NCBI GenBank assembly: GCA_030688735.1 | Contig: JAUYJC010000595.1 | Location: 1 to 33,122 of the forward strand | DNA from: Deltaproteobacteria bacterium | Lineage (GTDB): Bacteria > Desulfobacterota > Binatia > UBA9968 | DNA length: 33,122 nucleotides | Direction of reading: 5' to 3' | Shown here: in pieces, positions 3,550-31,316 of the stretch | Position numbering within the stretch: position 1 is the first letter of the stretch | Layout of the letters: each line of letters begins with the position of its first letter | Notes under the pieces: model-generated | The model's input: only the letters and a program-made list of their open reading frames with translations | Told to the model about the DNA's origin: nothing | Database searches by the model: none | Made by a program: the position numbers and the translations under genes

Positions 3550-4137
3550 ATGGGGAAAATATCTTTGGCGTTATCGCTGGGACTCTTGCTCACCGGCGCG
3601 CCGGCATCGGCGCAGCTTGGCCCTAAAGATGGCGCAGGCCTAAGCCCCACCGATCTAAAGCGGGTCAAAGTCGCCAGCCCGGCGCCCGATTTTGCCCTCG
3701 AAGGCATGGACGGTAAGCGGATCGCACTCTCCGATTATCGCGGCAAGAAAAGCGTGGTCTTGGTCTTTTACCGCGGCCACTGGTGACCCGATTGCACACA
3801 ACAGCTCGGGAAGCTGAAAAGCTTATTGAACAAACAGGAAAGAGAAAAAGTTCGGATTCTAACCGTAAGTATTGATAGCCATAACGACTCAAAGAATTTT
3901 ACCCAGAAGCTACGAGAGAGGTATCCGGGAGACTATAACTTCCCGTTTCTCGAGGATAAAAATCACAAGGTGATTGACCGTTACGGAATTCTCAACCCCG
4001 ACGGCAAGGGGTGGCCGCACCCAGCGACTTACGTGGTCGATCCGCAGGGCGTGGTGCGCTGGAAGTTCGTTGAAACCGACCCAAGCAAAAGACCGACGAA
4101 CGAACAGATTTTACAGGCACTCAGAAAAATTCCCTAG
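3550..4137 (+). CDS. Exported peroxiredoxin/thioredoxin-like selenoprotein, Sec at codon 79 (TGA 3784-3786)
   Basis: Read through an in-frame TGA, this is a single 195-residue AhpC/TSA-redoxin-fold protein. Residues 1-21 form a signal peptide ending ASA. The fold starts at [17 protein letters not shown], continues through [14 protein letters not shown], and ends with [17 protein letters not shown]. The TGA lies exactly where relatives carry the peroxidatic or resolving Cys of YRGxWCPxC, giving a UxxC redox pair (Sec79, Cys82). Homology continues in the same frame after the TGA, and a SECIS-like hairpin follows 20 bases later. Ribosome site GGGAGG precedes ATG 3550. Known: Prx-like selenoproteins with UxxC exist in bacteria. 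Inferred: envelope peroxide or disulfide reductase driven by the ECF promoter just upstream. Standard annotation would split it into 3550-3786 and 3826-4137. Confidence 0.88.
3787..3816 (+). promoter_or_regulatory. Candidate bacterial SECIS element of the peroxiredoxin-like gene
   Basis: Immediately after TGA 3784-3786, bases 3802-3806 (CAGCT) pair with 3812-3816 (AGCTG) around the loop CGGGA. The loop begins 20 bases after the TGA and has G in its first two positions. Both fit the known bacterial SECIS rules: apical loop 16-37 bases downstream and G near the loop start. Confidence 0.65.
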
Positions 4138-4215: not shown

Positions 4216-4881
4216 ATGTTAAGTCGAGTTGACGTCGCAAGTGCTTTTAAAGCGGGCGTTATCGGCACCGCGATTATGACTATCGTCATGTACAGCCTCC
4301 CTGTCATCGGGCTGCCGCGCATGGATATCATGGCGGCCCTGGGCTCGGTTTTCCCGTTTAAGATCTCGCCTTACGTTGCAGGATTCCTCGTTCACTTCGG
4401 CATCGGCATTGCCATGGCTTTAGGCTATGCGCTATTTTTCTTTGGGTGGATTCCGGGACCCAATTGGTTAAAGGGCGTCGTTTTTTCGCTTCTTCCCTGG
4501 CTCTTCGCGATTACTTTATTAGGTCCCTCGCTTCAGTTGGCCGCCAAGATTTTTGGCGCCGCGTCCTCGGGTTCAGCAAATCCCTGCGCGCTTGCCAACC
4601 CTTGTGCGCCAAAAGCAGCGAATCCATGCGCACCGGCCAATCCGTGCGCAACAAAAACGCCGGTAAACCCCTGTGGTCAACAAGCAACCAATCCATGCGC
4701 AGTCAAACCGGCTAATCCCTGCGCCGCTCGAACAGCCAATCCATGTGCTGCCGCAGCCGCAGCTAATCCCTGTGCTTCCGGCGTCCCTTCCCAAGCGAGC
4801 GTGCCACCTCAAGTTCTAAGCCTTATGGTTCATCTCATTTTTGGCGCGGTTGTCGGCTCCCTGTATCGGCCTCGCGCATAG
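4216..4881 (+). CDS. Four-helix membrane protein with a nine-fold NPC(A/G) cysteine repeat loop
   Basis: A 221-residue integral membrane protein. Helices lie at about 13-32, 54-77, 86-108 and 200-216. Between helices 3 and 4, residues 122-187 hold nine NPCA/NPCG tetrapeptides separated by 2-5 small residues (Ala, Lys, Thr, Pro). With an inside N-terminus the repeat loop would be extracytoplasmic. The helical part resembles small DUF6789-type membrane proteins, but I am not certain. No enzyme motif is visible. Nine regularly spaced Cys suggest metal binding or a thiol buffer; this is inference. A strong AGGAGG precedes the ATG. Only 28 bp separates it from the DUF3179 selenoprotein downstream, so the two are likely co-transcribed. 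A second NPCA protein is encoded at 6120-6380. Confidence 0.82.
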   Translation: MLSRVDVASAFKAGVIGTAIMTIVMYSLPVIGLPRMDIMAALGSVFPFKISPYVAGFLVHFGIGIAMALGYALFFFGWIPGPNWLKGVVFSLLPWLFAITLLGPSLQLAAKIFGAASSGSANPCALANPCAPKAANPCAPANPCATKTPVNPCGQQATNPCAVKPANPCAARTANPCAAAAAANPCASGVPSQASVPPQVLSLMVHLIFGAVVGSLYRPRA

Positions 4882-4909
4882 TTCATCGGTGAGCTGGTCT
4901 GTGTGTAGA

Positions 4910-5950
4910 ATGAAGGAGATCTATCGCTCTCTCATCTCGATTTGGCTCCTGCTTAGCGCGTCAGCTCTAGGAGCGGCTGACCTTCGCCCGGAAGCGATTG
5001 TCACAGTCCTACCCAAGGATGCTATCCCGGCAATTCTCTCTCCTACATTTGAAGACGGACAAAAAGTCTCCTGGCTCGGTCCTAAGGACAGAGTGGTCGG
5101 TGTGAAAATTGGCGGTGCCAGTCGCGCCTATCCGGTGGCAATTTTAAGCCGCCACGAAATCGTCAATGACAAAATCGGCGTCCTACCTTTCGCGGTCACC
5201 TGGTGACCTCTCTGCTATACGGCCATCGTGTATGACCGGCGCGCAGGAAACAAGGAGCTGACTTTCGGAGTGTCGGGGAAGCTGCACGCGAATTCCCTGA
5301 TCATGTACGACCATCAGACCGATAGTCTCTGGAGCCATCTCGTCGGCGCTGCCGTGAACGGTCCCATGAAGGGACAAAAGCTCAATTTTCTCGAATCCAT
5401 GTTAACCGAGTGGCAAGCGTGGAAAAGGCTCCATCCCAACACAAAGGTATTATCCACCGGTCGAAGCGGCTTCCTTGCTTCTCTGCGAGATCCTTACGAG
5501 TCTTATTACCGCTCAACCGATATCGGAATTATTCCCCCGCGAGTTTTAGACAAGCGTATTTATCCCAAGGAATATGTGCTGGGGCTGGTGATTAACGAAA
5601 ACGCCAAAGCTTATCCGTTCTCGGTCCTAAGTCGCCAGCCCGTCCTCAACGACAACTTTCAAGGCATACCCCTACTCATCGTCTTTGACTCGGAGAGTGC
5701 CACCGGCGTGATCTTCACGCGAAGGCTGGAAGGCAAAGACCTTGTGTTCAGAAAAACAACAGGCTGGGACAAACCAGGATTGTTCCTCGCCGATGATGCC
5801 ACGAAGTCGGTATGGGACGGGCTTTCAGGCAGGGGCATACAAGGCCCAATGAAAAGTAAGAAACTGGAGCCCGTTCCTATGACACCCTCGTTTTGGTTCG
5901 GCTGGGTGGATCACTATCCCAATACCAAGCTTTTTGCGTTGCAGAGATAG
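4910..5950 (+). CDS. Exported DUF3179-domain selenoprotein, Sec at codon 99 (TGA 5204-5206)
   Basis: Read through TGA 5204-5206, the product is 346 residues, normal for DUF3179 proteins. Residues 1-22 are a signal peptide (hydrophobic core WLLLSASALGA). Two related halves follow: RAYPVAILSRHEIVNDKIG...VTW-U-PLCYTAIVYDR (about 85-115) and KAYPFSVLSRQPVLNDNFQG in the second half, which lacks the Cys motif. The family motif is TWCPLC, so the TGA replaces the first Cys and leaves a UxxC pair (Sec99, Cys102). Homology is continuous in one frame on both sides. The function of DUF3179 is not established; the motif implies a redox or metal site. The ribosome site is weak. Conventional calling would give two broken pieces. 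A nonsense mutation is the alternative, but it would have to hit this exact codon. Confidence 0.8.
5207..5238 (+). promoter_or_regulatory. Candidate bacterial SECIS element of the DUF3179 gene
   Basis: After TGA 5204-5206, CGG (5220-5222) pairs with CCG (5236-5238) and CAT (5224-5226) with ATG (5232-5234), with one C-A mismatch between. The loop CGTGT starts 20 bases after the TGA, the same distance as in the peroxiredoxin-like gene. An alternative five-pair stem (5216-5220 with 5230-5234) has a loop starting GG, but only 14 bases from the TGA. This is the weakest of the three hairpins. Confidence 0.42.
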
Positions 5951-6119: not shown

Positions 6120-6380
6120 CTACTTTTTTACCGCGCAGGGATTCTTCGCCGCGCAAGGATTTTTCGCGGCGCATGGGTTCTCAGCGCCCTTTTTGCTCTT
6201 GGCAGCTTGCTTTTTCTTGTCTTTAGCTGCCTTCTTGTCCGGCTTGACTGCGCAGGGGTTCTTCGTCGCACAGGGATTTTTGGCCGCGCAGGGATTTGCC
6301 TGAGCAAATATCTGACCCGGTACGAGCAATAAGCCCGCAGCCACCAAAGCCAGCATCAAACGAACAGCTCTTTCCTTCAT
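6120..6380 (-). CDS. Small exported NPCA-repeat, lysine-rich protein
   Basis: An 86-residue protein. Residues 1-26 are a clear signal peptide (basic start, hydrophobic core, PGQIFA). The mature part has three NPCAxK hexapeptides (29-46), a Lys/Ala-rich linker (47-66), and three more NPCAxK units to the C-terminus, giving six Cys with six-residue spacing inside each block. AAGGAGG sits eight bases before the ATG. I know of no assigned function. The motif is shared with the membrane protein at 4216-4881, suggesting a common ligand or partner. Metal or heme handling and extracytoplasmic thiol buffering are possible but unproven. It has its own ECF-type promoter (site C) and is divergent from the cytochrome gene. 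Confidence 0.82.
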   Translation of the reverse strand: MKERAVRLMLALVAAGLLLVPGQIFAQANPCAAKNPCATKNPCAVKPDKKAAKDKKKQAAKSKKGAENPCAAKNPCAAKNPCAVKK

Positions 6381-6521: not shown

Positions 6522-6552
6522 GGGAACTTGTCTCCGATAAGATCTGTTTTAA
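6522..6552 (+). promoter_or_regulatory. ECF-type promoter, site D (five-heme cytochrome c)
   Basis: GGGAACTT (6522-6529), 16 bases, then GTTTTAA (6546-6552). A transcript would begin near 6558. This excludes the longest in-frame start (TTG 6528), which lies inside the first box, and favours a start at 6597 or 6612. Confidence 0.78.
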
Positions 6553-6596
6553 CCGTACGACCGTATCGAGGCTTGGAGCTTGGAAGAGATGACACT

Positions 6597-7907
6597 TTGA
6601 AGGTAGAAAAGTTGCGTTATCGAATTTGGGGACCATTCCTCTTGGGCCTCGTAGGCTTCGGAGGAATCGTATTTCTTGTCTATATGCGTTATTTCTCTAC
6701 GCCGAATCCAAAAGCGCAATCACGTCTCGTTGCGACGACGGAAATGGAGAATTTTTTTGCGGCTCACTGGCAGAGGCCGATTCCTCTTCAGGGTGTCGCT
6801 CCGCCATCTTACGGTGGGAAAGAAGCTTCATTGCGACCGGAGGCCTGCGGGAGTTGCCACCCGACACAATACGCGGATTGGAAAGAGAGCCTCCACCGCC
6901 GCGCCATGGGCCCCGGCCCTTGGGGACAAATTATCGATTTAACGCAAAACAGTCCTGAAGAGGCGATTCAATGCATGACCTGCCACGCGCCGCTGAGCGA
7001 ACAAATGCCTGCGCTTGAAAAGACGACCGATGGCAAGGGAAACTCTTACGCTAAGAATCCTAACTTCGACCCTCGACTACAACTCGAGGGAATTACATGC
7101 GCGGCATGTCATGTCCGGCGGCATCAGCGTTTCGGTCCACCGAAGGCTCAAGGAGCTAGCGCGACCCGATATCCTCCCGGTACGCCCAGCCACGAAGGTG
7201 TTCAAAGGACTCCTTATTTCGAGAAGGCCGAGTTCTGCAAAGACTGCCATCAGTTCGATCCTGAAAATAGCCTGTTGGTAAATGGCAAGCCGTTACAGGA
7301 CACCTATCGGGAGTGGAAGAATAGCATCTGGGGAAAGGGTGAGGCGGCATGTCAGGACTGCCACATGTCGGGTCGCCGACATCTCTGGAAGGGCATCCAC
7401 GACAGAGATATGGTTAAGGGCGGAGTTCGAATAGAGGCCCATCTAAAGAAACTCACCGCAATATCCGAGAGCCCGCTGGAGCTGTCGGTAGCGGTCACCA
7501 ACGCCGCGGTCGGACATAAGTTTCCGACCTACATAACGCCCAAGATTTTCGTTCTGGCCGACCTGCTGGACGAAAGCGGCAAGTCTTTACCAGGAACCAG
7601 CCAAGAGCAGATTATTGGCTGGGATACCCGTTTTGTCAACGGCCAATGGAAAGAATACTTCGACACGCGGATCGCTCCAGGTGAAATTTCTCGGAAAATC
7701 TTCAAGTGGACTCCGCCCGCGCGGGCGACCCAGGCCCGCGTCCGGGTTGAGGTACAGCCGGATCATTTTTACCACGTTCACTTCTATCCCGCCTATCTGA
7801 AAGGCGAAAACCTGAGCAACGACGGCAAACGGCTGGTTGAGAAAGCCTTGAAAGAGTCGGGCGGCACTTCCTTTGTCATCTTTGAAGAGGTGATCCCCCT
7901 CAGCTAA
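6597..7907 (+). CDS. Membrane-anchored five-heme c-type cytochrome
   Basis: About 436 residues. One N-terminal membrane segment (WGPFLLGLVGFGGIVFLVYM) anchors an extracytoplasmic domain with five CxxCH heme sites in order: CGSCH, CMTCH, CAACH, CKDCH and CQDCH. The first lies in the DWKESLHRRAMGPG context seen in cytochrome c554-like multiheme families. After residue ~290 a heme-free beta-sandwich-like domain follows (LELSVAVTNAAVGHKFPTY). No ATG is available in frame. I chose TTG 6597, preceded by GGAAGAG; TTG 6612, preceded by GAAGG and giving a short basic start before the helix, is equally possible. It likely transfers electrons in the periplasm, but donor and acceptor are unknown. Its ECF-type promoter places it with the selenoproteins and NPCA proteins. 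Confidence 0.87.
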   Translation: MKVEKLRYRIWGPFLLGLVGFGGIVFLVYMRYFSTPNPKAQSRLVATTEMENFFAAHWQRPIPLQGVAPPSYGGKEASLRPEACGSCHPTQYADWKESLHRRAMGPGPWGQIIDLTQNSPEEAIQCMTCHAPLSEQMPALEKTTDGKGNSYAKNPNFDPRLQLEGITCAACHVRRHQRFGPPKAQGASATRYPPGTPSHEGVQRTPYFEKAEFCKDCHQFDPENSLLVNGKPLQDTYREWKNSIWGKGEAACQDCHMSGRRHLWKGIHDRDMVKGGVRIEAHLKKLTAISESPLELSVAVTNAAVGHKFPTYITPKIFVLADLLDESGKSLPGTSQEQIIGWDTRFVNGQWKEYFDTRIAPGEISRKIFKWTPPARATQARVRVEVQPDHFYHVHFYPAYLKGENLSNDGKRLVEKALKESGGTSFVIFEEVIPLS

Positions 7908-10456: not shown

Positions 10457-11179
10457 TCACGACCCTGTCTTTCCCGCGTCCGTGGCGTAGGGCAAGCTGC
10501 CCCTGGCCTTGTAGTAGTCTTGTATCGCCTTCTCGCCGGAGCGCCGGTAGACGTCTTCCCTTTGAACCGGATCCATCGGAATCCAGTGCAGTCGCTCGGA
10601 TATACCTTGCCGGATGATCGGTATTTTCTTCGCTTTCATCTCATCGCGTTGCACCAGGCTCTCGCACATGCCGTTCAATTCGACGGCGTCGCTCCAGTCC
10701 GACTTATAGACCACAGTGCCTTCGCGGTCGATCAGGTAGACCATGTTGGGCAGCAGGCCGTAGGCGTAGTGGGTGGTGCCCTGAAAGTCGTCGACGAGAA
10801 TCGGAATCTCGTTGACTTTTTCCAGCTCGCGAAGCTTTTTCGCCTGCGCAACTTTCTGTTCGAAGGACTCATGGTGCGGATAATTCTCGCCGGGGTGCGC
10901 CTCGCGGGAGTAAACGATAAAAAATTGAAACCCTTTTGCCTGATATTCGCGATAGAGCTTGGTCAGTGGGGGAACCTCCCCCACAAAGGGCGGTCACGTG
11001 ATGCTGCCGAACTCCAGGAGCACATGCCTGCGGCCTTTGAACGACGACAAGGCGACCGGGTTGCCGTCGAGGTCGGGAATCGTAAAGTCGGGTGCCGGAC
11101 CGCCGACCTTGGCCACGGCGCGAAAATCCGGCGCGTTGACTTCACACTGTCCGAAAGCTTCGTAATTATAGCCGCTCAT
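10457..11179 (-). CDS. Iodothyronine deiodinase-like selenoprotein, Sec at codon 62 (TGA 10996-10994)
   Basis: Read through TGA 10996-10994, this is a 240-residue thioredoxin-fold protein matching the deiodinase family. The active site is LLEFGSIT-U-PPFVGEVPPL (animal enzymes: GSCTUPPF), followed by FFIVYSREAHPGEN (family EAHP motif) and a YGLLPNMVYLIDREGTVVYK strand-loop-strand. Residues 25-50 (GGPAPDFTIPDLDGNPVAL) are redoxin-like. There is no signal peptide, so it is cytoplasmic. GGAGG sits seven bases before the ATG. A near-perfect SECIS hairpin follows the TGA. Bacterial deiodinase-like selenoproteins are known from environmental data; their substrate is unsettled, with peroxiredoxin-like or dehalogenating activity possible. 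Annotators would split it at the TGA. It has no GGGAAC-type promoter. Confidence 0.92.
10966..10993 (-). promoter_or_regulatory. Bacterial SECIS element of the deiodinase-like gene
   Basis: On the minus strand a perfect seven-pair stem, GTGGGGG (10984-10978) with CCCCCAC (10972-10966), closes the loop AGGTT. The loop starts 16 bases after the TGA and resembles the AGGU-type loop of the E. coli formate dehydrogenase SECIS. Distance, stem length and G in the loop all satisfy the known rules. Confidence 0.85.
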
Positions 11180-23363: not shown

Positions 23364-24068
23364 CTAAGACTCCGGCCGTGTTTCTCGCTGGTCGAGACCG
23401 AGGCGCCGCAAAAATTCGAGAGTTAGCTTCATGGCGGATGCGCAATCTGGGGGGAGTTGTGATTTCATGCGGCGCAGGTCGTCGACGGTATCGATATCAA
23501 ACCAGGTGGGTAGAAGGTGAAATTCGATTTTCGACGCACTCAGTTTAGCCGTGGTTTGTGCCAGCACTCGATCATGGCTCCAGGTCATCCCGTCGAAGAT
23601 CTGCGGTGTTGAGCGATTCATGCCGACAAGATAATAACCGCCGTCGCGGCTCGGTCCGAGAACGACGCGCTCGCCGGCGACTTCCAGTGCGGTGAAAGCC
23701 TCTGCTAAATTGCGCAGCGGCACGGGAGCCAAATCGCCGCCGATAAGAACCATGTTTCGATGCCCTTGGGCGCGCAGCCAGTCAAACACCCCGTTCATTC
23801 TCGCGCCGAGATCGTCGCCTTCTTGGGCGAACAGCCGAAACGGCGCGGACGCAAGCTCGGCCATCGAAGCACGCGCATCGTCGGGCGTGAAGGCGAGATA
23901 GAGATCAGCGGATTTAAGACCGCTGAGATGATTGAGTTGATCCACCAGTAGAGCGCGGGACAGCTCCGCCGCTTCTTCAGGGGTGAGCACCGGCAGCAAG
24001 CGCGTTTTGACCTGGCCGGCCACCGGCGCCTTGGCCATCACCGCTAGGGCATTAGCGCGTGTCGGCAT
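23364..24068 (-). CDS. TIGR04282-family arsenosugar biosynthesis glycosyltransferase (DUF2064)
   Basis: A 234-residue nucleotide-diphospho-sugar-transferase-fold protein. It begins ANALAVMAKAPVAGQVKTRL, with LVDQLNHL, VLIGGDLAPVP and VVLGPSRDGGYYLVGMNR, the DUF2064/TIGR04282 signature. The family is named for its regular occurrence in arsenosugar clusters; the exact reaction has not been demonstrated to my knowledge. It overlaps the TIGR04283 gene by 17 bases and is last in the operon, followed by a terminator hairpin. Cytoplasmic, with no signal peptide. Confidence 0.88.
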   Translation of the reverse strand: MPTRANALAVMAKAPVAGQVKTRLLPVLTPEEAAELSRALLVDQLNHLSGLKSADLYLAFTPDDARASMAELASAPFRLFAQEGDDLGARMNGVFDWLRAQGHRNMVLIGGDLAPVPLRNLAEAFTALEVAGERVVLGPSRDGGYYLVGMNRSTPQIFDGMTWSHDRVLAQTTAKLSASKIEFHLLPTWFDIDTVDDLRRMKSQLPPDCASAMKLTLEFLRRLGLDQRETRPES

Positions 24069-24729
24069 AGAATCGTTTCAAGCGCGCCGGCGAAACTCCC
24101 GCGAGGTAGAGAAGCTTTAGCGTCCACATCCGAAATATGGTCCGCCACACTCCCTCCACCTCCCAACGGCGAGCCGAGGTCGTCACCCGAGTTCTCAAAC
24201 AGGCAACATCGCCCAGGCGTTTGAGCCGGCGGCAAAAGGCGATGTCTTCCATTAAAGGCATGTCGGGAAAGCCGTCTAGCTCTGCGAAAATTTCCCGGCG
24301 CACGAACAACGCCTGGTCGCCCGTAGCGACTTTCGAAATTCGCGACCGTAAGCTTATCATGAAGCCGACGACCTTGAGAAGCCAGCGGTCGCTGTCCAAC
24401 TCAACATCAAACCGGCCGCCAAGATAGCGCGGGTCGCTCAACGCCGATTCGATGTCGCGAAGAGCGGACGCCGGCAACCGTGTGTCGGCGTGAAGAAACA
24501 GCAGAACATCGCCGGTCGCATCCAGGGCGCCGCGATTCATCTGCCTGGCCCGGCCGGGGCCGGTCGTCAAAACCTTCGCACCGGCCTCCACACTGATCCT
24601 GCGCGTGCGATCGCTGCTGCCGCCGTCAACGACGATGATCTCATGAGGGTGTAGCGCGTTGAGCGCGGCGATCGTCGAGCCGATGGATTTCTCTTCGTTC
24701 AATACCGGTATGATGACTGAGATGCGCAT
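24052..24729 (-). CDS. TIGR04283-family arsenosugar biosynthesis glycosyltransferase (GT2)
   Basis: A 225-residue family-2 glycosyltransferase. MRISVIIPVLNEEKSIGSTI opens the GT-A fold; VVDGGSSDRT binds the nucleotide; GRARQMNRGA and LLFLHADTRLP (DxD-like HAD) match TIGR04283. The C-terminal part is a hydrophobic/basic LKLLYLAGVSPARLKRFY, possibly membrane-associated. It is paired by overlap with the TIGR04282 gene, a standing arrangement in arsenosugar loci. The predicted role is attachment or modification of the sugar moiety; donor and acceptor are not known from sequence. Confidence 0.88.
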   Translation of the reverse strand: MRISVIIPVLNEEKSIGSTIAALNALHPHEIIVVDGGSSDRTRRISVEAGAKVLTTGPGRARQMNRGALDATGDVLLFLHADTRLPASALRDIESALSDPRYLGGRFDVELDSDRWLLKVVGFMISLRSRISKVATGDQALFVRREIFAELDGFPDMPLMEDIAFCRRLKRLGDVACLRTRVTTSARRWEVEGVWRTIFRMWTLKLLYLAGVSPARLKRFYADTR

Positions 24730-24756
24730 CGCAGTTCTATGGCCCTGCCGGTGTCG

Positions 24757-25596
24757 TCATGGTTCGGACCCTACGCCGTTCAGCCGCCAATCGTAATCAT
24801 GGGCCAGGCCGCCGCTGTAGTTCGACAGCGCGTCGGTCAGCTTGCCCTCGGCATAATTCTGCCAGTGCTCCATCAACCCTTCGGCCGCGCCGCCGAAGTC
24901 CTCTTGGAACCACACATAGATGCTCGATACTTGGAGTTTACCGTTTTTAATGGTCACACCGCGCGGATGATTGATGTATTCCCGCGCACCCTTTTCCAGC
25001 AGCGCCTCGGTATTGTCAGCCGTGTAGGCGGTCGGCTGGAGATTCGGACAACCGAGGCTCGCGCAGTTTACGGCGTAATGGGCCCGGTTGTCCTTCCAGA
25101 TCGGCCGCAGGATGCGATGCTCGATGTCATCCAGCGACAGTTTCTCTCCTTCTATGGCAAGTACCTTCGCGCCCCATGGTCCGCGGGTGAAAAGGCCCGG
25201 CGAAATATTAACGTCTCGAATCGACGCCAGCGGAAACCGCGATATGATGATGTCCGCTGTAAGCGCATTGTAGAGATTGATCCAGAACGCCTTCTGTTCG
25301 GCGCGGTTATAGTTGGAAATTGCCAGGTCCTGCAGCGCTCGCAGGTAGCCTTTCAGGCTCTTCACAGCCTCAGGCGTCACCGCCTGGTAGCGTACACGGT
25401 TAATTCCCGACGGATGGTTAGCGACCACAAACTCGCGCAAAAACCTGTCCCAAGCGCCATGGTCGATTTTCTGCGAATTGGAGGGATCGTGCTTCTGCCA
25501 GCGAGGCCAGAGTTCCGCCTTCGGCGCAGCTTGCGCCGCGTTAACTGAAAACAGAACAACAAGAACTACCAGCGCTCGAACCGAGATGCTTTGCAT
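24757..25596 (-). CDS. Exported DUF547-domain protein
   Basis: A 279-residue protein with a signal peptide (MQSISVRALVVLVVLFSVNAAQA). The DUF547 domain follows: WDRFLREFVV, a central AFWINLYNALTADIII motif that is the family hallmark, WGAKVLAIEGEKLSLDDIEH, and HYAVNCASLGCPNLQPTAY with two Cys. DUF547 proteins are common in arsenosugar and lipid-linked loci, but the activity is unknown; papain/transglutaminase-like chemistry has been suggested and is not shown here. The ribosome site GGAG lies six bases before ATG 25596. It is 27 bp from the downstream glycosyltransferase. Confidence 0.85.
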   Translation of the reverse strand: MQSISVRALVVLVVLFSVNAAQAAPKAELWPRWQKHDPSNSQKIDHGAWDRFLREFVVANHPSGINRVRYQAVTPEAVKSLKGYLRALQDLAISNYNRAEQKAFWINLYNALTADIIISRFPLASIRDVNISPGLFTRGPWGAKVLAIEGEKLSLDDIEHRILRPIWKDNRAHYAVNCASLGCPNLQPTAYTADNTEALLEKGAREYINHPRGVTIKNGKLQVSSIYVWFQEDFGGAAEGLMEHWQNYAEGKLTDALSNYSGGLAHDYDWRLNGVGSEP

Positions 25597-25640
25597 CAAG
25601 AACTCCTCACTCCTAACCCCTTACTCTTCACCGATTCAAA

Positions 25641-27896
25641 CTAGCGCCGCCACGCCAGCCATTTCTCGAAGACTCGTTTCACCATGGGCGTCAGCTTGGT
25701 CCGCATATAAGCGTCGCCGATCTTGCGCAGCACCTCCGCCTGGGTCGGATACGAGTGAATGGTTGAAGACAAAACCGCCACGCTTTGTTTCGCGACCATC
25801 GCCAGCGTCAGTTCGCCGATCATTTCACCGGCGTGGCGCGCGACAATCGTTCCGCCAAGGATTCTACCGGTTTTCTTATCATAGTGAACGCGGGCGAAGC
25901 CTTCAGCTTCGCCGTCCAGGATCGCACGATCCACGTGATCTAACGACTCCGTTATCGTCGCCACGTCGAATCCGGCAGCGCGCGCGTCTTTCTCGTAGAA
26001 ACCGACGTGGGCAACCTCCGGGTCGGTGTAAGTGCACCAGGGGATCACCAGATCGGTCACCTTGCGCCGCGCCATGAAGAGCGCATTGGCGATCACGATG
26101 CGCGCCATGGCGTCGGCGGCATGGGTAAATTTGTAACGCGAGCAGACGTCGCCAGCGGCGAAAATTTTGCCACTGGTCGTGCGCAGCCGGTCGTCCACCG
26201 TCACACCCTGGGCTGTGTACTCCATCCCTGCCGCTTCCAAGCCCAGGTTTTCTAAATTCGGTTTGCGCCCGCCACCGACTAAGATCTCATCGATACTGAT
26301 GTCGTAGTGGTTTTCATGCGAATCCAGGGTCAACCGTTTGCCGCCGTCGGCCTTACTGATTTTCAACTCCTTGCCGCAGCACATGAGTTTTATACCGTCG
26401 CGTTCCATCATTAACTGGCGCACGATCTCGCTGGCATCGGGATCTTCGTTGGGAATAATGCCGTGCACGGCTTCGATCAGGTAGACCTCGCTGCCGAAAC
26501 GGGCAAAAGACTGCGCCAGTTCGCAGCCGATGGGGCCGGCGCCGATAACCGCGATCCGGCGCGGCAATTCGGTCAGCGTAAAAACGGTCTCGTTGGTCAA
26601 GTAACCGGCCTCTTTCAAACCGGGCACCGGCAGATCCGCCGCTCGGGCCCCCGTGGCGATGACGGCGCGGTTGAACTCCAGACGTTTGTCACCCACCTCT
26701 ACGGTGCTGGGTCCGACAAAACGACCGTTACCGATATAAACATCGATGCCGAGTTTCTTAAAGCGTTCTGCGGAGTCGTGGCCGCTGATGCCGGCGCGCA
26801 GCCTGCGCATGCGCTCCATCGCGGTAGCGAAGGCGATTTCTGGCTTACAGTCGAGTCGGACGCCGAACTCCTTGCCGGTACGCGCGTCGAATGCCGCCCG
26901 CGCCGCGCGAATCATGCCCTTGGACGGGACACAGCCGACGTTGAGACAATCGCCGCCCAAAAGATTACGCTCGATGAGCGCGACCCTGGCACCGAGCCCC
27001 GCGGCGCCAGCGGCGCTGACCAGACCCGCCGTGCCGCCGCCGATAACTACCAGGTTGTACTTGTCGGCGGGAGTGGGGTTAACCCAGCCCGAGGGATGGC
27101 AGTTCTCGATCAGTTGCTTGTCGTGCGCGTCATCGACGAGCATCATCTCGTCGAACGATGCCGGCTTGTGGTTGGGATCGAGGCGCGGTTTGCCGCTGAC
27201 GGCGCTGCCGTCGTGGGCCAGCTCCGCATCCCGCAGCGCCTTGCGCGCGATGCGCGTTACGATGACTACCACGGCGACGGTCGCCAGCAGGCCAACATAC
27301 TTCAAGATTTGCTGGTAGAAGTCCGTTGACCCGTCTGTTTGCCCCGCCAAAGCGTCCCGCGCCGCCGCCCCGATATAGACGTAAAGAAACGTCCCCGGCA
27401 GCATGCCGAAAAGATTCGCTAAGACATAGGAACCCGTCCGCACCGCCGTGAGTCCGAGAAGATAATTGAGCAGAGTGAACGGAAAGGCCGGACTGAGACG
27501 CGACAGAAAAACCATTTTGAAACCCTGTTGGCCGATGGCGCGGTCGAGGGAACGAAACTTCGGGTTGCCCTCCGCCCAGCGCGCCACCTTGTCGCGGAGC
27601 AACGTCCGCGCCAGCAGGAATGCACACAGCGCGCCCAGATTGGCACCCGCCAAGACCACCAGGAAGCCTGTTTTCAACCCGAAGAGCGTGCCGGCGCCGA
27701 TCGTGATAGCGCTTCCCGGTATCAACAGAACGGTTGTCAGGACGTAGGCCAGGGCCACCGCGATGGGTCCGAGACTGCCGAGACCCCGGATATAATTTTC
27801 AAAGCCCGCAAACCAATCCCGAAACGGCAGAAAAATAATCGCCGCGACGATGTCGATGATCAAGAAAGCGACAAACAGTTTCTTGGCCGTTCTCAT
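25641..27896 (-). CDS. TVP38/TMEM64 membrane domain fused to a pyridine nucleotide-disulfide oxidoreductase
   Basis: 751 residues. Residues 1 to about 220 form a VTT/TVP38-type membrane domain with about five helices and the conserved GAGTLFG and LSRLSPAFPFTLLNYLLGLT segments. Residues 280-751 are a flavoprotein of the dihydrolipoamide/mercuric reductase class: NLVVIGGGTAGLVSAAG, redox pair Cys317-Cys322 in CLNVGCVPSK, a second NAD(P)H site IAVIGAGPIGCELAQSF, and HSYPTQAEVLRKIGDAYM at the dimer interface. It lacks the N-terminal metal domain and C-terminal Cys pair of MerA. The arrangement suggests membrane-tethered reduction of a disulfide or metal(loid) species. ATG 27896 has only a weak ribosome site, 16 bp after the PiT stop. 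Confidence 0.92.
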   Translation of the reverse strand: MRTAKKLFVAFLIIDIVAAIIFLPFRDWFAGFENYIRGLGSLGPIAVALAYVLTTVLLIPGSAITIGAGTLFGLKTGFLVVLAGANLGALCAFLLARTLLRDKVARWAEGNPKFRSLDRAIGQQGFKMVFLSRLSPAFPFTLLNYLLGLTAVRTGSYVLANLFGMLPGTFLYVYIGAAARDALAGQTDGSTDFYQQILKYVGLLATVAVVVIVTRIARKALRDAELAHDGSAVSGKPRLDPNHKPASFDEMMLVDDAHDKQLIENCHPSGWVNPTPADKYNLVVIGGGTAGLVSAAGAAGLGARVALIERNLLGGDCLNVGCVPSKGMIRAARAAFDARTGKEFGVRLDCKPEIAFATAMERMRRLRAGISGHDSAERFKKLGIDVYIGNGRFVGPSTVEVGDKRLEFNRAVIATGARAADLPVPGLKEAGYLTNETVFTLTELPRRIAVIGAGPIGCELAQSFARFGSEVYLIEAVHGIIPNEDPDASEIVRQLMMERDGIKLMCCGKELKISKADGGKRLTLDSHENHYDISIDEILVGGGRKPNLENLGLEAAGMEYTAQGVTVDDRLRTTSGKIFAAGDVCSRYKFTHAADAMARIVIANALFMARRKVTDLVIPWCTYTDPEVAHVGFYEKDARAAGFDVATITESLDHVDRAILDGEAEGFARVHYDKKTGRILGGTIVARHAGEMIGELTLAMVAKQSVAVLSSTIHSYPTQAEVLRKIGDAYMRTKLTPMVKRVFEKWLAWRR

Positions 27897-27912
27897 GATT
27901 CTTTTACTGTTT

Positions 27913-29043
27913 CTATGCTAGCGCTACCCGAGACAACAACAGGTAAATTAAACCGGCGCTCACCGCCGAAAATGGAAGAGTCAAAACCCAGGCGAGCAAG
28001 ATCGTGCGGATCACGCCCCAGCGGGCCTGGCCGCTGGCCGCGCCGATGCCGAACAACGCGCCACAGGAAACATGTGTGGTCGAAACCGGCAAACCCCACT
28101 TCGAAGCAAAGATCACCAATCCACTGGTGACGAGATTCGCCAGAAATCCCTGATCCGTCTCGAGTGCGGTGATGCGCTTGCTCACCGTCTCCGCCACTTT
28201 TCGCGCGTTGAGTAAGCCGCCCAGAGCCATGACCACGGCCACGACGCCGATGGACCAGCTAAGATTCAGCGTGCCGCCGGCCAAGCCAAGGGCGACGATT
28301 TTCGGCGTGTCGTTAAGGCCGCGGGCGAAACTCACCGCGCCGGCGCTGAAATAGTGGCCATAGTCGATCAACCTATGCACATCGAAACCGAACATCGTGC
28401 CGGCGAGTCGCTGCACGCATCGGCCCGGTTGGTCGACGATGATGCGAAGGCCGGTCGATGCATGGGAGAAAACATAGCCTTCAGGAGTAACGGCGGCGGG
28501 CACCACTTCGCTACCGACGCAGACGCAGGTTTGTTTATCGACGCCGGCAAAACGCAGAGCCGCGCTCAAAAGCGGGTAGGCCGCTGCCGACAACGCCACT
28601 GCGAGGAACGGACTGACGAGCAGCGGCAGAAAAAAACTTTGCCATACGGTTGCGCCGGTCAAATTGAATCCCACTGCCGCGACGCCCCCGCCGATCAGTG
28701 CTCCCGCTAAACTATGCGTCGTCGAGATCGGCATGCCGATCTTGGTTGCGGTGAAAACCGTCAGTGCCGCGCCCAGAATGACCGCCATGAGAAACGCCGG
28801 CGAGTGAACGAGAAACGACGGAACCAGACCATTTCCTTGGAACACTGCGATGAGATTTCCAGCGAGAAAAAAGGCCGCCAATGATCCCGCGAGAGTGGTC
28901 GCCGTAGCCCACCACAGAGCCTTGCGATAATCGCTGACACCGCCGCCGAACAGCGTTGCGACGCCCTTGAAGTTGTCATTGGCGCCGTTGGCATACGCGA
29001 TAAGCAACATCGCGCCAACGATCAAGATGGCGAAATCGAACAT
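27913..29043 (-). CDS. PiT-family inorganic phosphate (arsenate?) transporter
   Basis: A 376-residue integral membrane protein with about ten helices. The PiT signature appears in both halves: YANGANDNFKG (residues 18-27) and FARGLNDTPKIVALG, each with the ND pair needed for phosphate/cation transport. PiT proteins move metal-phosphate or phosphate with H+ or Na+; arsenate is a known alternative substrate. Its place between arsS and the flavoprotein suggests supply of arsenate, or phosphate replacement during arsenic exposure; this is inferred. GGAG precedes ATG 29043. Spacing to arsS is 21 bp. Confidence 0.9.
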   Translation of the reverse strand: MFDFAILIVGAMLLIAYANGANDNFKGVATLFGGGVSDYRKALWWATATTLAGSLAAFFLAGNLIAVFQGNGLVPSFLVHSPAFLMAVILGAALTVFTATKIGMPISTTHSLAGALIGGGVAAVGFNLTGATVWQSFFLPLLVSPFLAVALSAAAYPLLSAALRFAGVDKQTCVCVGSEVVPAAVTPEGYVFSHASTGLRIIVDQPGRCVQRLAGTMFGFDVHRLIDYGHYFSAGAVSFARGLNDTPKIVALGLAGGTLNLSWSIGVVAVVMALGGLLNARKVAETVSKRITALETDQGFLANLVTSGLVIFASKWGLPVSTTHVSCGALFGIGAASGQARWGVIRTILLAWVLTLPFSAVSAGLIYLLLSRVALA

Positions 29044-29064
29044 CCTGCGCTCCTTCGCGTGAAT

Positions 29065-30027
29065 TTAAGATACAAGCGCACCGCCGCAGCTGCTTCCTGC
29101 CCCCGCGGTGCAGGCATAGCAGTGGTTGCCGACGGCAATGGGCCGGCTCAGCACCTGCTCGATGGTTAGAGTGGAGATATTGAGCGCCTTGCCGTCGGCA
29201 CCTAGAATCGGCAACCGAAGCATTTGATTGAAGTCGCAGTCGTGGATCGACCCTTGCCAGCCGACACTGATGAGATTGCGGCACATGACTTGGTCCAGGG
29301 CGGCGGCATTGAAGTTGGACTCCAGCAATTCCATGTACCGGTCGTACTCGCCGCGAAGCTTGAGGTGCATCGCGTGGCGCGTGATCGGCATGTTGGCGAG
29401 GCAATAGAGACGGTTGAACTCGATACCGAATCGGTCGCGCAGAATGCGCTTGTAGTCCTGCTCCAGTTTTTCCTGCGGTGGCGGCAGGTGCGGGCCGACC
29501 GGGTTGTAGACCAAATCTAACTTCAACTCCCCGTCCGGTTGACCGTAGCCCAGCTGATTGAAAATCTTCAACGCGCGAATGCTCAAATCAAAAGTCCCCT
29601 TGCCTCGTTGCTGGTCAACCTTTTCTTCCGTGTAGCAAGGCAGCGAGCAAACCAGTTCCACCCGATGGCGCCGGAAAAACTCTGGCAAATAATCTTTGCC
29701 AGGTTCAAAGATCACCGTCAGGTTGCAACGATCCATCACGTGGCGCCCGAGGTTCATTGCCGATTCCACTAGATAATTGAAATCCGCGTGCAATTCCGGC
29801 GCGCCGCCGGTGATATCAAGAGTCGGAATCTTTGAACCACTGAGAAATCGTAAGACCGCTTCCACGGTGTCACGGCTCATCATTTCTTTGCGCGTCGGGC
29901 CCGCTTCGACGTGACAGTGGATACAAGCCTGGTTGCAATACCGGCCCATGTTCACCTGCAAGGCGTCGATCGTGCGCCGGCTCAGCCCATTGCCGTTTAG
30001 ATGGAGCTTTTGTGCGAAGGGTTGCAT
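29065..30027 (-). CDS. arsS: Arsenosugar biosynthesis radical SAM protein ArsS
   Basis: A 320-residue radical SAM enzyme. The 4Fe-4S motif is Cys31-x3-Cys35-x2-Cys38 (CNQACIHC), followed by the family's HVEAGP. The Cys-rich C-terminal half (CSLPCY, CRNLIS, HDCDFNQMLRLPI, then Cys303, Cys306 and Cys314) matches TIGR04167, whose members join a methylated arsenical to a 5'-deoxyadenosyl unit. In related proteins the AGSS(C/U)GG position can be selenocysteine; here it is a normal Cys codon. ATG 30027 gives the usual N-terminus. The 83 bp gap to arsM holds a CGATCCTCGAT-rich repeat-like tract and no gene. Confidence 0.92.
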   Translation of the reverse strand: MQPFAQKLHLNGNGLSRRTIDALQVNMGRYCNQACIHCHVEAGPTRKEMMSRDTVEAVLRFLSGSKIPTLDITGGAPELHADFNYLVESAMNLGRHVMDRCNLTVIFEPGKDYLPEFFRRHRVELVCSLPCYTEEKVDQQRGKGTFDLSIRALKIFNQLGYGQPDGELKLDLVYNPVGPHLPPPQEKLEQDYKRILRDRFGIEFNRLYCLANMPITRHAMHLKLRGEYDRYMELLESNFNAAALDQVMCRNLISVGWQGSIHDCDFNQMLRLPILGADGKALNISTLTIEQVLSRPIAVGNHCYACTAGAGSSCGGALVS

Positions 30028-30110
30028 GGATTTTCGATTGAACCCGGATCGTCGAATCGCTTCCCGATTTGCGATTCTCTATCCTCGATCTTCGATCCTC
30101 GATTTGTTTC

Positions 30111-31316
30111 CTACGGACAGCAATTCGAGTCCGGGCCGCACATGCTGCTGGATATTCGAGTCACGTTGTATTCCAATCCCTTGGTCTCGCGCGGATGGCG
30201 GCGCTGGTCGCGGGAGCAATCGAAGACGCCGGCCCTCTCCGGCACCACTTCTTCTCGGGGTGGGACTAAGATGAACTGGCCTTCGTAAGGCGGTTGGGAA
30301 TAAAGTTTAAATGTCTTGTCGCACACGGCAATGCGCGCGCCGCGCGGCAGCACGTGATTGTCGTCGTCCACCACTTGTTTCCACGGGCCGCGGTACATCA
30401 CCGCCTGGTTGCGCTCGACGCAGGGGCCTTCCTTGCCCTTGTAAGCCGTCACCGTTACGGCGCGAAACTCGACACCCTCGACGGTTTGATAGGCTTCCGA
30501 GCGCAGCTCTTCGATTTGAATACCGTGAAACTTGGCTTCTTCGAAAGCGCGCAAAAACTCTTCTTCTTGGAAAGCGCCGGACACACAGGCGCTCCACAGA
30601 TCGGGATCTTTCGCCAGATGTTCCGGCACCGGCTCGTCGCTGACGATATCGGAGATGGCGACCCGGCCGCCGCGCTTTAACACGCGGTACATCTCGGCAA
30701 ATAGCGCCTTCTTGTCTTCCGGCCGCACCAGATTGAGCACGCAGTTGGAAATGATCACGTCGATAGATTCGTCAGGGATTAAGGGCTGCTCGTTTCGAAT
30801 CTTGTCCTGGAATTCCTCCAATCGCACCAAACCCGTCGCGGACCGAACTGGATTCGCCTCCAGGTACCGGTCCACCATCTCCAAATCGGTTCTCAGGTCC
30901 TGAATCTTGCCGCGGCGAAACTCGACGTTGTGATAGCCCAGCATGTCGCCGATGGCTTTTTGATATTTGCGCGCCAATTCGAGCATCGGCGGATTGAAGT
31001 CCACGCCGATGACTTTACCCTTGGCACCGACGATCTGCGCCATGATGTAACAAGCCTTGCCGCTGCCGGAACCGAGATCGAGAACCGTCTCGCCTTCGCG
31101 AACGTAACGCGACGGATCGCCGCAGCCGTAATCTTTTTCCAGGATCTCTTGTGGAATGACGTTCAACAGCGCCTCATTATAACTCACCGGTAGACACAAA
31201 CAGGCTTCGACTTCCTGTGCCGCGCTGCCGTAGCGCTCGAGAACGGCGCCCTCCAGGTCGGCAGTCTGTCCTTGGTTGCCATTGCCATTGACTCCGGTAA
31301 CCGATTCACCGTTCAT
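30111..31316 (-). CDS. arsM: ArsM-like arsenite S-adenosylmethionine methyltransferase
   Basis: 401 residues. The class I methyltransferase core has VLDLGSGSGKACYIM (SAM site, about 78-92), VIGVDFNPPML and the IISNCVLNLVRPEDKK segment. Cys residues at ISNCVLNL and SACVSGAF lie where ArsM enzymes hold the arsenite-binding cysteines, with further Cys39, Cys41 and Cys65. A C-terminal extension of about 120 residues (Cys-poor, then CGPDSNCCP at the end) follows. It makes mono- and dimethylarsenicals, the substrates of ArsS. GGGAGG precedes ATG 31316. It is first in the seven-gene operon, about 115 bases downstream of ECF-type promoter site F. Exact substrate is inferred from neighbours. Confidence 0.9.
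   Translation of the reverse strand: MNGESVTGVNGNGNQGQTADLEGAVLERYGSAAQEVEACLCLPVSYNEALLNVIPQEILEKDYGCGDPSRYVREGETVLDLGSGSGKACYIMAQIVGAKGKVIGVDFNPPMLELARKYQKAIGDMLGYHNVEFRRGKIQDLRTDLEMVDRYLEANPVRSATGLVRLEEFQDKIRNEQPLIPDESIDVIISNCVLNLVRPEDKKALFAEMYRVLKRGGRVAISDIVSDEPVPEHLAKDPDLWSACVSGAFQEEEFLRAFEEAKFHGIQIEELRSEAYQTVEGVEFRAVTVTAYKGKEGPCVERNQAVMYRGPWKQVVDDDNHVLPRGARIAVCDKTFKLYSQPPYEGQFILVPPREEVVPERAGVFDCSRDQRRHPRETKGLEYNVTRISSSMCGPDSNCCP

Follow-up and report, generated by a model that had tools for sequence, protein, structure and literature searches.

The gene at positions 4910-5950 (+) of the window, the whole 33,122-nucleotide stretch of DNA analysed here, encodes a DUF3179 protein (PF11376) in which an in-frame TGA codon is very probably decoded as selenocysteine (Sec). 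The frame runs from an ATG at 4910 to a stop at 5948-5950 and comprises 346 codons; the TGA (5204-5206) is codon 99, so that the encoded motif reads TWUPLC. Taken together, the sequence features make it very likely that the product is an exported selenoprotein, with Sec99 inserted by way of a downstream hairpin; the function proposed for it is that of a redoxin-linked oxidoreductase.

The earlier note saw in this gene a possible undescribed selenoprotein family. A new family is ruled out by published tables: DUF3179 (pfam11376) is listed as a UxxC/T selenoprotein in reviews of 2022 (PMC9312934) and 2026 (PMC13188914), of which the second cites Zhang & Gladyshev 2007. The window gene is very probably a well-supported further example of the listed family. 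It shares the Pfam domain and Sec at the first CxxC-like position with the tabulated proteins, and both UxxC and UxxT occur among the sites collected here. The present set differs in extending to other bacterial lineages, in its covarying bSECIS and linked redoxin selenoprotein, and in including UxxA and U(T)LC forms. A published gene table for Idiomarina includes one DUF3179 protein, and a full-text literature search for DUF3179 found no description of its function.

An in-frame TGA codon under coding constraint

When TGA is translated as U, 4910-5950 contains a single internal TGA and no further in-frame stop. The PF11376 match continues unbroken across this codon (profile positions 1-292, E = 2.1e-85), and in the alignment with non-Sec homologues the TGA column coincides exactly with the first Cys of TWCPLC, which bears out the placement and the two-sided homology given in the earlier note. 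The gene is the only DUF3179 match found in the source genome, and its hydrophobic N terminus, read by eye, is likely to be a signal peptide.

The closest clade (the window gene together with loci L023-L029 and L033) consists of nine non-identical genes, all of which have TGA in the Sec column. Substitutions among the nine follow a protein-coding pattern upstream and downstream of the codon; between the window gene and L023, the 246 codons after the TGA differ at 54, 33 and 145 sites in codon positions 1, 2 and 3, respectively. A TGA arising by chance is excluded, because the same codon stands in nine non-identical genes and the coding ratio is kept beyond it. It is very improbable that the TGA is a true stop, whether in a pseudogene, through an assembly error or between two proteins. 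Translation table 11 does split the frame into 4841-5206 and 5228-5950, as gene callers using the standard bacterial code do with such Sec genes, but the same TGA recurs in genomes that were assembled independently and belong to several lineages, coding constraint flanks it on both sides and the hairpin that follows it covaries.

A genome-wide reassignment of TGA to Cys, Trp or another residue has an even smaller probability. It would accommodate the fact that TGA is read through in several window genes and in selD, which has its own in-frame TGA near the N terminus (AAGUAAKLGP). Several features argue against it: the alignment of TGA with Cys is limited to redox motifs, the Trp preceding it is encoded by TGG, and ordinary genes stop at TGA. 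One of these is the DUF547 gene, whose terminal in-frame TGA was rejected as a recoded codon because the sequence beyond it is unrelated. The genome also encodes tRNA-Sec and selA, selB and selD, the three sel genes lying adjacent on contig C482 and the tRNA-Sec, with a tca anticodon, on contig C271. The presence of Sec machinery, on which the earlier note had made its reading depend, also speaks against reassignment and for Sec. Co-occurrence with selA is a weak test, since 80 of 97 related genomes have a selA match; in one genome with a TGA-type DUF3179 gene (G006) a convincing selA was not found in the draft assembly, perhaps as an effect of its draft state.

A scan of species-level and related genomes recovered 101 DUF3179 motif sites after removal of duplicates; 22 of these have TGA, and the other 79 have TGC or TGT. 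The equivalent position, for which the earlier note had proposed a wider search, thus carries TGA in other genomes from several lineages and is aligned with Cys in the rest. The TGA sites belong to the window clade with a Tectomicrobia member, to a second family within the same order as the window genome (SWUPLC), to one Calditrichaeota gene (VWUPLA), to locus L117 (TYUPLT) and to loci L111 and L114 (SYUTLC). A quick protein tree calls for four switches of the Sec/Cys label; well-supported branches make at least three of these unavoidable, so the two residues have replaced each other more than once.

The hairpin downstream of the TGA

A bSECIS-type hairpin lies at 5220-5238 (+), 20 nt after the TGA, with arms at 5220-5226 and 5232-5238 and the loop CGTGT at 5227-5231. 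Published constraints on a bSECIS are a loop of 3-9 nt with a G within its first two positions, a distance of 16-37 nt from the UGA and a minimum free energy of -7.5 kcal/mol or lower (PMC13188914). The window hairpin agrees with all of these (loop CGUGU, 20 nt, -11.0 kcal/mol over a 42-nt stretch), and its stem, CGGCCAT/ATGACCG, has one C.A mismatch. What the earlier note called a plausible though imperfect SECIS is therefore a hairpin of the published type, and one in which the pairing covaries. The folding energy is no better than that of shuffled sequences (z from +0.1 to +1.4) and was set aside as uninformative.

Comparison of the Sec genes is more telling. Four of the seven stem pairs change on both sides, and pairing is kept through such two-sided changes in CGGCCAT/ATGGCCG (L028), CGTCTAT/ATAGACG (L124-L131) and CTGCCGT/ATGGCAG (L086). 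The covariation score of the stem is 0.313 against 0.115 in shuffled data, with 0 of 500 shuffles as high; these shuffle counts are not probabilities, because sequences inside a lineage are related. A sturdier argument is that the CGTGT loop is common to four separate groups of Sec genes. The loop is present in 20 of the 22 Sec genes compared with 2 of the 79 Cys genes, and on average 6.0 of the seven stem positions pair in the former compared with 3.2 in the latter, most Cys genes lacking both the pairing and the loop. Of the four hairpin columns that encode invariant residues, three show a frozen codon, compared with 2% of such columns elsewhere.

Locus L117 is out of the strict stem register, although by eye a bulged pairing may exist. 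The CGTGT hairpin is absent from L111 and L114, and the Sec reading of these two SYUTLC genes is less certain; they fold another hairpin, the loop of which begins ∼14 nt after the TGA. A 'fossil' SECIS considered in Scalindua Cys genes was rejected, the partial pairing there being explicable by coding constraint.

One constrained residue in a duplicated protein

Profile comparison shows the two halves of the DUF3179 protein to be homologous (E = 1.1e-28), the product of a tandem duplication after which the second half has degenerated. The first repeat (5066-5458, +) holds the HEIVND and UPLC motifs; its homologue (5546-5944, +) has neither the His nor the Cys/Sec motif. Within the first half, the first motif position is Cys or Sec in all 80 sequences compared and the conserved His is present in 78, whereas the second motif position is Cys in 57, Thr in 18 and Ala in five. 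The strict constraint thus falls on the first residue; because Thr or Ala often takes the second position, not every member can depend on a disulfide within CxxC. The family does not conform to the classical dithiol CxxC pattern, in which both Cys are conserved: the second is found in 57 of 80. On this pattern of conservation the first residue (Cys/Sec99) is probably a nucleophile, and the suggestion that a Cys-to-Sec swap marks a putative catalytic redox site gains support from its invariance.

An AlphaFold2 model, in which Sec was replaced by Cys, is mostly beta strand (mean pLDDT 94, pTM 0.92). Sequence searches found no relative with a solved structure. In Foldseek searches the best structural matches to the models are Rieske and NirD-type domains, with probabilities reaching 0.99 and 0.96, and no match reached E ≤ 0.001 (best values 0.055 and 0.15). 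A Rieske-like fold is suggested by the models, without being significant. Homology to Rieske proteins by profile was rejected: the comparison was not significant with eight sequences or with 39, and there is no match to the Rieske Pfam family (PF00355). DUF3179 also differs from Rieske proteins in its iron-sulfur ligands: the four ligands of CxH...CxxH are not kept, and only single positions are conserved (His in 78/80, Cys/Sec in 80/80).

These matches bear on a different role for the residue. Sec would still be inserted, but into an electron carrier or metal-binding protein of Rieske descent, with Cys/Sec as a metal ligand instead of a nucleophile. The high probabilities of the structural matches favour such a role; the E values, the profile comparisons and the loss of the ligands weigh against it, and it appears unlikely.

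Redoxin neighbours and a proposed function

Two genes upstream of DUF3179 lies a second selenoprotein gene, encoding an AhpC/TSA (redoxin) protein (3550-4137, +; PF00578, E = 4.4e-34) with a TGA at 3784-3786 in FYRGHWUPDC. Between the two selenoprotein genes is that of a DUF6789 membrane protein (4216-4881, +; PF20587, E = 7.1e-11). The order AhpC/TSA, DUF6789, DUF3179 is repeated in L033, and the AhpC/TSA neighbour, TGA included, is kept in L023, L024 and L033. At L117, too, the Sec DUF3179 gene has an AhpC/TSA gene with a TGA in its vicinity; no redoxin gene next to DUF3179 was seen in the examined flanks of L026 and L028.

In four archaeal loci, an AhpC/TSA or redoxin domain is fused in one frame to the N-terminal side of DUF3179 (L038:2036-3667, L039:5416-7011, L047:5377-6882 and L068:51-1643); these fusions carry Cys, not Sec. 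Members of a DsbD_TM gene family lie close to five DUF3179 loci, of which four are archaeal. From the redoxin adjacency, the archaeal fusions and the DsbD_TM genes we infer that the protein is an exported thiol/selenol oxidoreductase with a redoxin as its partner in electron exchange, and on this indirect genomic evidence the upstream AhpC/TSA selenoprotein is somewhat favoured as the redox partner. The two proteins have in common Sec in a UxxC motif and predicted export, and they are adjacent here and fused in the four archaeal loci, but their folds differ: the DUF3179 model is mostly beta strand, and none of the structures listed as its matches has a thioredoxin fold.

Cys-rich NPCA repeats are inserted in the DUF6789 protein (4540-4800, +) and make up a small exported-looking protein with no family match (6120-6380, -); both recur in L033. 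The gene at 6528-7907 (+), which has counterparts in L026 and L033, encodes a multihaem cytochrome c-like protein with weak similarity, below the cut-off, to the ExtKL (seleno)protein model. Another probable selenoprotein gene, the third in the window (10457-11179, -; PF00837, E = 8.8e-18), is deiodinase-like, with a TGA at 10994-10996 in FGSITUPPF that is followed by a strong hairpin; a similar TGA gene is present in L099. A cluster at 23364-31316 (-) encodes DUF2064, a family 2 glycosyltransferase, DUF547, a TVP38-flavin disulfide reductase fusion, a PHO4-type permease, an arsenosugar-type ArsS (TIGR04167, E = 8.5e-132) and an ArsM-like methyltransferase that is below its family cut-off.

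Such genes raise the question whether the DUF3179 protein handles arsenic or another metalloid, its selenol attacking or carrying the metalloid. ArsS, an ArsM-type protein, a phosphate-type permease and the TVP38-flavin disulfide reductase fusion are all encoded in the window, VTT-domain or flavin-reductase genes lie within ∼5 kb of several Cys-type DUF3179 loci, and ArsS and PiT-type genes are each near four such loci. However, the window cluster is ∼18-26 kb away from DUF3179, most DUF3179 loci have no such cluster, and many of the TVP38 group members align with just a portion of the fusion. A metalloid-handling role is improbable on this distribution.

In the favoured mechanism, that of a redoxin-linked oxidoreductase, SelB, docked on the 5220-5238 hairpin, would deliver Sec-tRNA-Sec to the UGA at 5204-5206, giving a 346-residue protein with Sec99. 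The active centre would be kept in the first half only, formed by His82, Glu83, Asn86 and Asp87 and by the selenol, which in most relatives is replaced by a thiol. The selenolate would most likely act as the nucleophile of an extracytoplasmic thiol/selenol oxidoreductase, and a redoxin of thioredoxin fold, in this window the product of the upstream AhpC/TSA selenoprotein gene, would be its partner in electron exchange. Candidate reactions are the reduction of peroxides, disulfides or metalloids. It is a tentative and rather doubtful extension that DUF3179 represents an uncharacterised class of exported thiol/selenol enzymes, with a duplicated, possibly Rieske-derived fold devoid of Fe-S ligands, a single catalytic Cys/Sec and electrons supplied by redoxins.

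The hairpin at 5220-5238 can be tested base by base, and Cys/Sec99, together with the likely redoxin partner, offers starting points for the function of the widespread DUF3179 domain.
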